Shown one piece after another: positions 46,327 through 55,139 of a stretch of 57,688 bases of DNA. The stretch spans positions 1-57,688 of the forward strand of contig JANJTP010000018.1 of the NCBI GenBank assembly GCA_024711025.1, read 5' to 3'. The DNA comes from Solirubrobacteraceae bacterium. Its GTDB lineage: Bacteria; Actinomycetota; Thermoleophilia; Solirubrobacterales; Solirubrobacteraceae. The position numbers and the translations under genes are program-made. Position 1 is the first letter of the stretch; each line of letters starts with the position of its first letter. The notes beneath the pieces are model-generated. The model worked only from the letters and a program-made list of their open reading frames with translations, ran no database searches and had not been told where the DNA came from.

Positions 46327-46341
46327 GGAGTCCGTTGCTGT

Positions 46342-46470
46342 CGTTCGTCGGCCTCCGGGGTTAGCTGACGGGCTGGCGCGAAACGAACCTGCGCTCCCCG
46401 CGGGATCACCGCGGAGTTCGCCCCAAACTTTGGGTCCCCCGGTCCCCGCGATCGCGGGGATTCGGCGTCT
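46342..46470 (-). ncRNA. c-di-AMP riboswitch (ydaO/yuaA class) before the NlpC/P60 gene
   Basis: Read on the minus strand, the hallmark pieces of the actinobacterial ydaO/yuaA riboswitch occur in order: GCCGAATCC (46466-46458), a CCCCGCGATCGCGGGG hairpin (46459-46444), GACCGGGGGACCCA, GGGGCGAACTCCGCG, then CCCGTCAGCTAACC and GGAGGC (46373-46350). It ends about 20 nt before the GTG of the hydrolase gene. This class binds c-di-AMP and usually lowers expression of cell-wall hydrolase and ion-transport genes when the ligand is abundant. The exact ends are approximate. Confidence 0.9.
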
Positions 46471-46481
46471 TGTGCGCGCGC

Positions 46482-46487: not shown

Positions 46488-46600
46488 CACAAGCGCGACG
46501 ACGGAACGCCATCTCGCCGTCGCGAAGACCCTCGCAGTTTGCGGGGAGGACCCGCAGTACTGGCTCCGTTTCCTGGTCGGTGGGGCCGATGATTCGGCGC

Positions 46601-46733
46601 GCCCCGAACGACGCGGCACGCCCCGAACGACGCGGCACGCCCCGAACGACGCGGCACGCCCCGAACGACGCGGCGCGCCCCGAACGACGCGGCACGCCCC
46701 GAACGACGCGGCACGCCCCGAGCCATGCGGCAC
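46601..46733. repeat. Seven 19-bp tandem repeats
   Basis: The unit GCCCCGAACGACGCGGCAC is repeated head to tail at 46601, 46620, 46639, 46658, 46677, 46696 and 46715. The first six are identical but for one base (46658 unit); the last is degenerate. There are no spacers, and 19 is not a multiple of three, so it is neither CRISPR nor coding. It lies upstream of the riboswitch promoter. Confidence 0.95.
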
Positions 46734-46746
46734 GCCTGCGAGGGTT

Positions 46747-52323: not shown

Positions 52324-52364
52324 GGATCAGCTACCTCCGGTTCTTGTCGAGCACGACCATCGAG

Positions 52365-52370
52365 AGGGTA
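52365..52370 (-). promoter_or_regulatory. -10 box (TACCCT) of the thiolase gene
   Basis: TACCCT on the minus strand about 42 nt before the ATG, with a GGAGGT ribosome site in the leader. Confidence 0.4.
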
Positions 52371-52411
52371 GTCGCCCCGGTCGACCGCTACGCGCCACGC
52401 GGCGCGCGCGG

Positions 52412-52417
52412 TAACCT
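52412..52417 (+). promoter_or_regulatory. -10 box (TAACCT) of the 3-hydroxyacyl-CoA dehydrogenase gene
   Basis: TAACCT with 10 nt to the ATG at 52428; leaderless mRNA predicted. It chooses this ATG over in-frame starts up to 28 codons upstream. Confidence 0.5.
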
Positions 52418-52427
52418 GCCGCGCCGC

Positions 52428-53228
52428 ATGCAAGACGAGCGCCTCGCCATCGCAGGGACCGGTTCGATCGCCTGCGGGCTCGCGGTGGTCGGCGCCCGTT
52501 TGGGAGATGTCCACGTCAGAGCCCGCTCCGAGTCCTCGGCGGAGCGCGCGCGCGGCGCCATCGCCGCCCTGCGCGAGAAGCTCGGCGACGACGACGGATC
52601 CGGCGAGATCCACGTCGGAACCGAATGGGAGCCGCTGGCGTCGGCCACGGTGCTCGTCGAGGCGGTCGCCGAGGAGCCGGTCGTCAAGGGCGGCGTGCTC
52701 GGTCGCCTCGATGCGCTCGCCGCCCCCGACGCGATCATCGCGACGACGACCTCCTCGCTCTCGATCTCCGACCTGGCGCGAGCCAGCGGCAGACCGGACC
52801 GCTTCGTCGGCCTGCACGTCTTCAACCCGGTGACGCGGATGGAGCTCGTCGAGCTCGCTTTCCCGGCGCAGGCGCGCGAGAGCACCGTCGCCCGCGCCAG
52901 CGCGCTCTGCGAGGCGCTCGGCAAGACCTCGGTCGTCGTTCCGGACACGCCCGGCTTCGTCGTCAACCGCCTGCTGTTCCCCTACCTGTTCTCCGCGGTC
53001 GACTTCATGGAGCGGCACGGGATGCGGCCCGAGGACATCGACGAGTGCATGCGCCTCGGCGCCGGCCATCCGATGGGGCCGCTCGCGCTGCTCGACTTCG
53101 TCGGCCTCGACGTCGCTGCGGCGATCGGGCGCGAAATCGGCGTGCCCGTCCCCCAGCGGATCGGCGCGCTGGTCGGCGAGGGCGCGCTCGGCCGCAAGAC
53201 CGGGCGCGGCTTCTACAACTACGGCTGA
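52428..53228 (+). CDS. 3-hydroxyacyl-CoA dehydrogenase (3-hydroxybutyryl-CoA type)
   Basis: 266-aa NAD-dependent dehydrogenase. The Rossmann start IAGTGSIACGLAVVGA is slightly divergent (GxGxMGxG in most members). TTTSSLSISDLA, GLHVFNPVTRMELVEL (catalytic His in HVFNPV), VVVPDTPGFVVNRLLFPYL and GAGHPMGPLALLDFVGLD are family signatures; FYNYG ends it. With the divergent thiolase it forms a small fatty-acid/hydroxybutyrate degradation pair. Confidence 0.9.
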   Translation: MQDERLAIAGTGSIACGLAVVGARLGDVHVRARSESSAERARGAIAALREKLGDDDGSGEIHVGTEWEPLASATVLVEAVAEEPVVKGGVLGRLDALAAPDAIIATTTSSLSISDLARASGRPDRFVGLHVFNPVTRMELVELAFPAQARESTVARASALCEALGKTSVVVPDTPGFVVNRLLFPYLFSAVDFMERHGMRPEDIDECMRLGAGHPMGPLALLDFVGLDVAAAIGREIGVPVPQRIGALVGEGALGRKTGRGFYNYG

Positions 53229-53260
53229 GCGGCGCCGCCGGCCCGAGCGCGAAGGCCGCG

Positions 53261-53323
53261 GGCACTCCAGGGACCCGTCGACATGCCCCCCTGGCACTCC
53301 GGGGACCCGTCGACATGCCCCCT
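53261..53323. repeat. Two 32-bp direct repeats
   Basis: Copies at 53261-53292 and 53293-53323 share ACCCGTCGACATGCCCCC and an upstream GGCACTCC. Each can fold CCAGGG/CCCTGG-type stems. They follow the dehydrogenase stop by about 30 nt and may act as its terminator. Confidence 0.8.
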
Positions 53324-53334
53324 GGACCGAAACC

Positions 53335-53363
53335 TTAACGACCTCGTAGCCCGTCTTTAGGCT
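53335..53363 (+). promoter_or_regulatory. Promoter in a gene-free region (TTAACG-17-TAGGCT)
   Basis: -35 TTAACG at 53335-53340, exactly 17 nt, -10 TAGGCT at 53358-53363; predicted start near 53370. The only start codons right after it are a TTG 3 nt on and ATGs within the GCATGATG at 53382; none leads a coding-like frame. Confidence 0.5.
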
Positions 53364-53369
53364 GCGTTG

Positions 53370-53475
53370 AGGGGCGCGGCGCATGATGCTCCTGCGAACG
53401 CACCTCGCAAGTGCACCTCCTCCCAGAAGCACAGGAATCGGCCCGCCTCAAGCGGGTCGATTCCTTTCTGGGGGG
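53370..53475 (+). ncRNA. Candidate structured non-coding RNA
   Basis: From the predicted transcript start, a small hairpin GCAC/GTGC (53400-53414) is followed by a long one: outer stem CCCAGA (53422-53427) / TCTGGG (53467-53472) and a continuous 14-bp inner stem 53433-53446 / 53452-53465 (one G-T pair) with loop CTCAA. I match it to no RNA family. Confidence 0.45.
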
Positions 53476-53510
53476 GCTCGCGGAACGGCTGGGGGGCTCG
53501 CGGAACGGGC
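53471..53510. repeat. Two 20-bp direct repeats
   Basis: GGGGGGCTCGCGGAACGG begins both 53471 and 53491; the copies differ only in their last two bases. They follow the long hairpin directly. Confidence 0.8.
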
Positions 53511-53520
53511 CCGTTCGGGC

Positions 53521-53700
53521 CGGCCGGGCGCCTCACGGGCGAAAGCCGCCGATCTGGACGGCGGGCCGGCCGGGCGCCTCACGGGCGAAGCCGCCGATCT
53601 GGACGGCGGGTCGGCCGGGCGCCTCACGGGCGAAGCCGCCGGCCTGGGCGGCGAGCTGGCCTGGCGCATCACGGGCGGAGTCGCCGGTCTGGGTGGGGTC
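53521..53700. repeat. Four ~45-bp tandem repeats
   Basis: Unit of about 45 bp beginning GGCCGGGCGCCTCACGGGCG and containing GATCTGGACGGCGGG. Copies 1-3 are close (copy 1 has one extra A), copy 4 is degenerate. Each unit can form a CCGCC/GGCGG stem with the loop GATCTGGAC. The frame reading AGRLTGEAADLDGGS has coding-like third positions, so a decayed repeat protein is possible. Confidence 0.8.
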
Positions 53701-53725: not shown

Positions 53726-55039
53726 TCAGCCCTCAGCGGGCGGGGCCGCCGTGCGCGGGCGGATCCGGACCGCCTCGATGCGGTTCTCGCGGACCGACTC
53801 GACGCGGATCGAGTAGCCGTCGGCGCGCACCGTGTCGCCGCGCTTGGGCAGCCGGCCGAGCTCGTCGAACACGAGGCCGCCGACGGAGTTGTAGGCGTCC
53901 GTCTCCACGGGCAGCTCGATTCCGTGATCGAGTAGGTCTGTGATCGACACGTGGCCGCGCACGAACCAGTCGCCGTTTGCGAGCCGGCGGATCGCCCCGC
54001 CCGCCGGATCGGTCTCGTCGTCGATCTCGCCGACGACCTCCTCGACGATGTCCTCGACCGTCACGACGCCGGCCGTGCGCCCGTACTCGTCGACGACGAC
54101 GGCGAGCGACGAGCGCTCGCGCTGCAGGTCGGCGAGCAGGTCGTCGAGCGGCTTGGTCTCGGGAACGATCAGCGCCGGCTTGACGAGCGGCTCGATCGAC
54201 GCCTGGGGCCCGTCGGCCATGTAGCGACGCACGAGCGAGTTGGCGTGGACGGTGCCGCGCACGCGGTCGGAGCTCTCGTCCTCGGTGACGACGAGCCGCG
54301 TGTGGCCCGAGGAGACGCAGCGGCGCAGCGCCGTCTCGATGTCGTCGGAGACGTCGATCGTGACGACCGCGGGAATCGGCGTCATCACCTGACGGGCCTC
54401 CTGCTCGTGCAGGTGGAAGACGCCCGCCAGCATCCCCGCCTCGCCGGCGTCGAGCTTGCCGCCGACATGGGCCTGGGAGATCAGCAGCTTCAGGTCCTCC
54501 GGCGAGGCCTCGTCGTGGAAGCCGGCGTGCGGGTCGATGCGGCCGAGTCGCAGGATGCCGTTCGACGCCGCGTTGAGCGTCGAGATCGCCGGCCGCATGA
54601 CGATCTCGAACACGTCGAGCACCAGCGCCGAGTGACACGCGACGCTCTCGGCCCGGACGATCGCGAAGATCTTCGGGACCTGCTCGCCGGCGACGACGTG
54701 CAGCGCGGTGACGAGGACGTAGGCGATCGCGACCGAGACGACGACGGCGGCGCCGTGGGCCGCCACGCCGCCGATGAGCGGCTCGAAGATCCGCGCGACG
54801 GCCGGCTCGCCGAGGAAGCCGATGCCCAGCGAGGCCATGGTGATCCCGAACTGACAGGCCGACAGGTAGCGCGACAGGCTGCCCTGCTGGCGCAGCGCCC
54901 GGGCCGCGCCGCGCACGCCTGCGTGCGCCTGCTGCTCGAGCCGGGCGCGCGTGGCGCGTACCAGCGCGAACTCGGCCGCGACGAAGAACCCGTTGACCAG
55001 CACGAGCACGAGGACCGCGAGCAGGAGCAGCGCGGTCAT
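53726..55039 (-). CDS. CNNM/CorC (HlyC) family membrane protein with CBS domains
   Basis: 437-aa protein (439 from a GTG two codons upstream). A DUF21/CNNM transmembrane domain (about 1-190; VNGFFVAAEFALVRATRARL is its signature) is followed by a CBS pair (about 205-330, MTPIPAVVTIDVSDDIETAL and VVVDEYGRTAGVVTVEDIVE) and a C-terminal CorC_HlyC domain (FVRGHVSITDLLDHG onward). Members are linked to magnesium/cobalt export or resistance; despite the 'hemolysin' name no toxicity is implied. A TATGCT hexamer at 55101-55106 might start a leadered transcript. Confidence 0.9.
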   Translation of the reverse strand: MTALLLLAVLVLVLVNGFFVAAEFALVRATRARLEQQAHAGVRGAARALRQQGSLSRYLSACQFGITMASLGIGFLGEPAVARIFEPLIGGVAAHGAAVVVSVAIAYVLVTALHVVAGEQVPKIFAIVRAESVACHSALVLDVFEIVMRPAISTLNAASNGILRLGRIDPHAGFHDEASPEDLKLLISQAHVGGKLDAGEAGMLAGVFHLHEQEARQVMTPIPAVVTIDVSDDIETALRRCVSSGHTRLVVTEDESSDRVRGTVHANSLVRRYMADGPQASIEPLVKPALIVPETKPLDDLLADLQRERSSLAVVVDEYGRTAGVVTVEDIVEEVVGEIDDETDPAGGAIRRLANGDWFVRGHVSITDLLDHGIELPVETDAYNSVGGLVFDELGRLPKRGDTVRADGYSIRVESVRENRIEAVRIRPRTAAPPAEG

Positions 55040-55139
55040 GGGCACGCGGCCTGAGAGCCGCTACTTCGAGGAAGGTCGTCGGGCACGATCGACTCAGCGG
55101 AGCATAGAGGGCATGGCGGCCGGCACGTCCCGAGGTCGC

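Follow-up and report, generated by a model that had tools for sequence, protein, structure and literature searches.

A predicted small RNA with an anti-Shine-Dalgarno segment, and an operator in common with htrA, in the Solirubrobacteraceae

Background

What is encoded by a gap between two convergent genes in which no protein can be recognized? In the window (the whole stretch of DNA analysed, 57,688 nucleotides of contig JANJTP010000018.1, assembly GCA_024711025.1, from a Solirubrobacteraceae bacterium), 497 bp separate the stop of a 3-hydroxyacyl-CoA dehydrogenase gene (hbd, stop at 53228) from a convergent corC-like gene (from 53726). An earlier note, made from the letters of the DNA, had drawn attention to about 500 bp free of any credible open reading frame (ORF), and had suggested that a promoter and a stable hairpin within them might constitute a new small RNA (sRNA). 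The gap does lack a credible ORF, and no Pfam match was obtained for any ORF tested within it. The features discussed below are as follows:

52344..53228, + strand: 3-hydroxyacyl-CoA dehydrogenase gene (hbd; PF02737, PF00725), upstream neighbour
53334..53339, + strand: possible extra half-site CTTAAC, a candidate read from the sequence
53356..53371, + strand: operator TTTAG-N6-TTGAG (11-bp direct repeat NTTNAG-N5-NTTNAG) with conserved half-sites
53382..53387, + strand: -10 element CATGAT, separated from the operator by 10 nt, from comparison of 50 members
53393..53472, + strand: predicted small RNA of about 80 nt; covariance model match of 90 bits, E 1.5e-18, scored on a sequence that was itself in the training set of the model
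53393..53409, + strand: 5' hairpin TGCGA-ACGCACC-TCGCA, with paired changes among 50 members
53416..53426, + strand: anti-Shine-Dalgarno segment CCTCCTCCCAG, left unpaired by the hairpins on either side; region predicted to bind mRNA
53433..53465, + strand: terminator hairpin of 14 bp with loop CTCAA, then T-rich sequence; covariation among 50 members
53726..55045, - strand: CNNM/CBS/CorC-like membrane protein gene (PF01595, PF00571, PF03471), convergent neighbour

Part of the gap is taken up by tandem-repeat arrays that flank the sRNA on both sides: 53261-53322 (32-bp unit, 1.9 copies), 53471-53508 (20-bp unit, 1.9 copies) and 53516-53692 (45-bp unit, 3.9 copies). Elsewhere in the window, a c-di-AMP riboswitch (RF00379, 63.9 bits) is found at 46335-46477 on the minus strand, with a 7.5-copy array of a 19-bp repeat (46595-46736) about 120 bp upstream of it.

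Results and discussion

Structure of the RNA

The predicted RNA consists of a 5' hairpin, a near-invariant unpaired anti-Shine-Dalgarno (anti-SD) segment, CCUCCUCCCAG, and a terminator hairpin, in that order. The inner stem of the last pairs 53433-53446 with 53452-53465 over 14 bp, including one G-U pair, around the loop CTCAA, just as the earlier note had described it; the minimum free energy of 53363-53490 is -69 kcal/mol (z -4.6), and none of 200 shuffled sequences was equally stable. The note had extended this hairpin by a 6-bp outer stem (CCAGAA/TTCTGG), which can form around the 14-bp stem but, unlike the latter, is not conserved among relatives. The hairpin at 53433-53465 is probably the terminator stem of the approximately 80-nt sRNA.

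In an alignment of 50 members, the fitting of which to the tested structure favours that structure in the pairing counts, 94.6% of pair cells are occupied by standard pairs, both partners have changed in 10 of the 15 pairs, and none of 500 shuffles reached any of five measures; with slid control structures, paired cells fell to 23-44%. By the same counts, all four outer pairs of the 5' hairpin are double-changed and 84% of its cells are paired, and the terminator hairpin has 98.9% of cells paired over nine pairs, five of them compensatory. Terminator pairs and differing 5' stems are also visible by eye and in separate folds: the 5' stem is TGCGA/TCGCA in most members and of the GAACRTTC type in others, the structure of this hairpin being better conserved than its sequence. 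The segment CCTCCTCCCAG is nearly invariant in the 50-member alignment, and an alignment of 18 relatives shows CCTCCTCCCA nearly unchanged, flanked by the 5' hairpin and by a terminator hairpin rich in GC. At the terminator tail, alignment columns 125-128 are T-rich across members, but the run of T is broken; a strict intrinsic-terminator scan made no call at the 3' end of the sRNA, where the GC stem is strongly conserved.

Distribution of the family

Neither the sRNA nor its homologues match any Rfam family (Rfam 15) at the gathering score, which agrees with the earlier impression that no known RNA family was recognizable; searches at E<=10 returned weak, chance-level matches for the sRNA stretch, and those at E<=0.5 nothing relevant in six homologue loci. 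When 61 relatives were searched at the DNA level, strong matches ran from the operator through the terminator, mostly beside the same gene or genes: in 24 of 46 loci an hbd-type gene on the same strand lies upstream, and in 40 of 46 a corC-like gene follows downstream in convergent orientation. A covariance model built from 14 sequences matches 70 of 121 Solirubrobacteraceae/Conexibacter genomes at E<1e-5 and 105 of them at E<=0.1, chance matches being included among the 105; the other 16 of the 121 gave no match, and in a search of 299 genomes of the class the matches outside the family are at chance level (best E 6e-5). In the GTDB collection of 84,980 genomes, 17 contigs contain the core GCACCTCCTCCCAGAAGCA letter for letter; every one of them has a covariance model match, and they are assigned to Solirubrobacterales, Solirubrobacteraceae, Conexibacter or unresolved Actinobacteria/Actinomycetota. 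This distribution is best explained by an RNA family confined to the Solirubrobacteraceae, soil bacteria taken here broadly so as to include Conexibacter; the RNA family is previously undescribed and absent from Rfam. In two genomes (G016 and G005) the whole unit, including its own promoter, is present twice in tandem; a whole-genome search found no further copy of 53250-53550 in the source genome.

The earlier suggestion of a new small RNA is thus supported on three counts, namely the lack of an Rfam family, conservation in related genomes by both DNA and covariance model searches, and the compensatory base changes that the note had proposed looking for. We hold with high confidence that 53393-53472 on the plus strand is a real sRNA gene, predicted from these comparisons to be transcribed.

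Promoter and operator

The upstream regions of members align almost without gaps as the repeat NTTNAG-N5-NTTNAG, 10 nt, and a -10 element. T3 and A5 are invariant in both half-sites (50 of 50 members), G6 is present in 39 and 42 of 50, respectively, and at position 4 the first half-site has T and the second mostly C or G. At a gap of 10 nt, A2 and T6 of the -10 hexamer are both found in 43 of 50 members, against at most six of 50 at gaps of 8, 9, 11 or 12 nt. The repeat, which overlaps the expected -35 position, is likely the operator of an OmpR-family response regulator, a class that we infer. In its strict form, TTTAR-N6-TTSAG, the operator occurs once in the whole source genome, at the sRNA, and 13 times in seven genomes, seven of these occurrences being at the sRNA.

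The candidate half-site CTTAAC lies 21-22 nt, or two repeat lengths, before the operator, and similar extra half-sites occur upstream in some relatives. It covers most of TTAACG (53335-53340), which the earlier note had joined with TAGGCT (53358-53363) into a promoter; both hexamers are present with 17 nt between them, but TAGGCT overlaps the first half-site of the operator and the -10 element conserved among the 50 members is CATGAT, so that the pair does not form the promoter. No promoter was called in the stretch by a sigma-70 scan. With the conserved promoter about 25 nt further downstream, the transcription start that had been placed near 53370 is now predicted at about 53393: the 5' hairpin begins 37-39 nt from TTTAG in 47 of 50 members, and given this fixed distance the RNA very probably starts at the 5' hairpin.

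An operator in common with htrA

One strict operator away from the sRNA is located just before a gene for an HtrA/DegP-like protease, and a -10 element and the ATG follow it at the spacing seen at the sRNA. We then collected htrA orthologues from 41 family genomes and scored 30 upstream regions with a position weight matrix built solely from sRNA promoters. Scores of at least 11, the cut-off, were found upstream of 14 of 30 orthologues, compared with 0 of 30 on the reverse strand and 0 of 30 in coding sequence (Fisher p 1.7e-5); 525 kb of other sequence yielded a single score that high. Of the 18 htrA promoters that have a box, 14 place the ATG at a distance of 38-42 nt from it, which is the position where the sRNA begins; the htrA mRNA is therefore probably leaderless. 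The orientation and spacing of the operator at htrA independently fix the strand of the sRNA promoter. In the source genome, htrA has a weak box (GTTTACTGGCCCTTCAA, score 7.0), after which CATGCT and ATG are spaced as at the other promoters. Taken across the family, these promoter sequences make it very likely that the sRNA and htrA are under shared control.

In several genomes htrA is situated amid genes of tryptophan biosynthesis (loci L212, 1181-2374; L213, 5159-6364; L214; L215; L216), identified from translations as trpD and trpC before it and trpF and trpB after it, and has its own internal promoter among them. No obvious two-component pair is beside htrA in five loci, and no regulator gene for the operator was seen there. 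An attempt to find the regulator gene through auto-regulation was rejected, there being no convincing operator within about 1.5 kb of 15 OmpR-type regulators of two genomes (G000 and G008).

Relaxed operators were also noted at two other genes, each a single case. In the source genome (G000:C41:15744; L175, about 1501-1540), one precedes a gene for a PAP2-family phosphatase, with a -10-like TAGCCT and the ATG 39 nt from the box, making this gene a possible further member of the regulon. A similar relaxed box, with a -10-like TAGCCT and comparable spacing, is found at a gene for an FxsA-family membrane protein (G008:C11; L174, about 392-437).

The anti-Shine-Dalgarno segment and its possible targets

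Both CCTCCTCCCAG and the motif CCUCCUCCC are perfect complements of GGGAGGAGG, and CACCUCCU is common to CCUCCUCCC and the 3' end of 16S rRNA. Held unpaired between two hairpins, CCUCCUCCC should block ribosome binding, and we consider it rather probable that blocking of SD sequences is the main action of the sRNA. In the source genome, GGGAGGAGG is not enriched before start codons (12 occurrences versus 10 for the reversed pattern), and several perfect 9-nt SD sites fall inside genes. The best candidate for a conserved target, a SigH-like gene, was discarded, GGGAGGAGG being kept in only two of the orthologues read. A crude count in the window showed little enrichment of GGAGG at start codons, so that SD-led mRNAs may be few and the sRNA may act on a minority of mRNAs with a strong SD.

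Comparison with known regulatory RNAs and regulons

The 6C RNA of Actinomycetota (RF01066) is an actinobacterial sRNA with C-rich unpaired segments, a feature in which the RNA described here resembles it, but the sRNA has no match to RF01066 even at E<=10. The alphaproteobacterial CcsR/cuckoo RNAs, which are stress-linked and often multicopy, present the identical anti-SD motif CCUCCUCCC (PMC3927594, PMC10253847); in those RNAs, however, it is located in hairpin loops rather than in the linker between hairpins, and they are driven by RpoH and co-transcribed with a DUF1127 gene. The sRNA scores 10.6 bits against RF02791 (CcsR1), for which the cut-off is 65.3.

On the side of the regulator, the OmpR-family protein MprA of Corynebacterium binds sites of the type TKTTAAGAAM as well as htrA (PMC12113857), so that the MprAB-HtrA/PepD systems of Corynebacterium and mycobacteria offer a parallel for an OmpR-family regulator of an actinobacterial htrA. 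The consensus contains TTAAG, and the Corynebacterium htrA site TTTTCAGCAA contains TTCAG (same source); an MprA-like regulator of the sRNA/htrA operator is therefore plausible by analogy. Unlike the regulon proposed here, the MprAB-HtrA/PepD regulons are described, in the passages of PMC12113857 consulted, with no mention of a comparable sRNA, and no mprAB-like genes were identified beside htrA in the five Solirubrobacteraceae loci.

The closest parallel is the streptococcal CiaRH regulon, in which CiaR acts at NTTAAG-N5-TTTAAG, with the -10 element ten nt away, to drive csRNAs that bear anti-SD segments (PMC3091779) and, by base-pairing near the start of translation, repress comC and other mRNAs (PMC3091779, PMC4507080), and to which htrA also belongs (PMC12826053). 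Resemblances extend to a direct-repeat operator with an 11-bp period and T3 and A5 conserved in both; a -10 element ten nt after the repeat (a gap of 10 in 43 of 50 Solirubrobacteraceae members); a similar size, with 5' and terminator stem-loops and an unpaired anti-SD segment, as judged from folds and covariation; and control of htrA by the same system, with several copies of the RNA in some genomes (PMC3091779, PMC12826053). By contrast, repeat position 4 is T, C or G in Solirubrobacteraceae and A in streptococci, so that NTTAAG-N5-TTTAAG is not matched; the csRNA nonamer [A/C]UCCUAAA[A/C] occurs neither in the sequence nor in the alignment, the anti-SD segment being the GC-rich CCUCCUCCCAG; and the sRNA belongs to another phylum, the Actinomycetota, in which the htrA of Solirubrobacteraceae looks leaderless. 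CiaH homologues have been reported only in streptococci (PMC3091779). We accordingly suggest a csRNA-like mode of working in an RNA that need not itself be a csRNA.

Proposed function and alternative explanations

The computed features (an RNA family, its structure, a conserved promoter and an operator common to htrA) can be joined in one reading, which we judge probable: a trans-acting sRNA of envelope stress, activated together with htrA by an OmpR-family regulator, that blocks translation of mRNAs with a strong SD. An OmpR/PhoB-family response regulator would bind NTTNAG-N5-NTTNAG, 10 bp upstream of the -10 element, and activate the promoter of the sRNA as well as that of htrA, the mRNA of which is apparently leaderless. 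A regulator common to both would place the sRNA in a cell-envelope (secretion) stress regulon, with envelope (secretion) stress as its presumed signal. The 5' hairpin and the terminator hairpin would hold CCUCCUCCCAG unpaired; thus exposed, it would mimic the 3' end of 16S rRNA, pair with ribosome-binding sites of the GGGAGGAGG type and prevent translation of the mRNAs that carry them.

A simpler account, in which the locus is merely a bidirectional terminator serving hbd and the corC-like gene that faces it, and the remainder is chance, is very unlikely: the hairpin does lie between convergent genes with T-rich sequence after it on the plus strand, and the corC-like gene is convergent in most of the loci counted above, but a terminator needs neither a covarying 5' hairpin nor a near-invariant CCTCCTCCCAG, neither a promoter at fixed spacing ahead nor duplication of the unit in tandem; moreover, operator, -10 element and start are common to htrA at a distant locus, and the unit also occurs without an adjacent hbd. 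We give scarcely any credence to a minus-strand element in which GGGAGGAGG would be a genuine ribosome-binding site, serving a short leader peptide (MRGAFAGASCAAPLNAA). On that strand GGGAGGAGG does have candidate start codons and a frame of 17 codons after it, but this reading was rejected on the frame, which by eye is not kept in relatives; the distance from operator to motif varies by numbers that are not multiples of three (54-66, 79), transcription of the minus strand would run antisense into hbd, and the operator and -10 element point the opposite way, in an orientation confirmed at htrA.

Two further alternatives accept the RNA and differ as to its regulon or its action. Direct repeats of 11 bp are typical of PhoB/PhoP-type boxes, some of which resemble TTAAC/TTTAG, and on this likeness the operator could be a phosphate box and the RNA a member of a phosphate-starvation regulon. 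That proposal is largely refuted and highly improbable: pstS-type genes (L109-L138) carry GTTCAC/TTTCAC repeats with an 11-bp period, which are classical actinobacterial boxes, and none has a member-like TTTAG-N6-TTSAG, the one high score being an isolated 12 (G020), whereas htrA does carry the box of the sRNA type. Membership of the Pho regulon was rejected on this difference between the box and the pstS box of the same genomes. That the RNA is real but serves chiefly as a protein sponge, or pairs with a single mRNA through its 5' hairpin rather than acting as a general anti-SD RNA, would fit both the lack of any conserved or enriched SD target and the conservation of the 5' hairpin in structure over sequence; we nevertheless regard it as unlikely, the near-invariant part being exactly the unpaired anti-SD segment, as in csRNAs and CcsR/cuckoo RNAs (PMC3091779, PMC3927594).

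Extending the reading of an anti-SD RNA of envelope stress, it is conceivable, though on balance doubtful, that the locus represents a CiaR/csRNA/HtrA-type circuit outside the Firmicutes, whether inherited from a common ancestor or convergent, in which leaderless htrA would escape the anti-SD RNA, its mRNA lacking an SD, and translation would shift to leaderless stress mRNAs.

Conclusions

A literature search on sRNAs in this bacterial class, the Thermoleophilia, turned up nothing relevant. The analysis yields a defined RNA family, the logic of its promoter and a stress gene under common control; the organisms include cultured ones (Conexibacter), in which function is therefore directly testable. 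The parallel to the streptococcal csRNA/HtrA circuit in another phylum raises the question whether an anti-SD RNA together with HtrA may be a recurrent design, and also whether leaderless mRNAs exempt stress genes from anti-SD RNAs.
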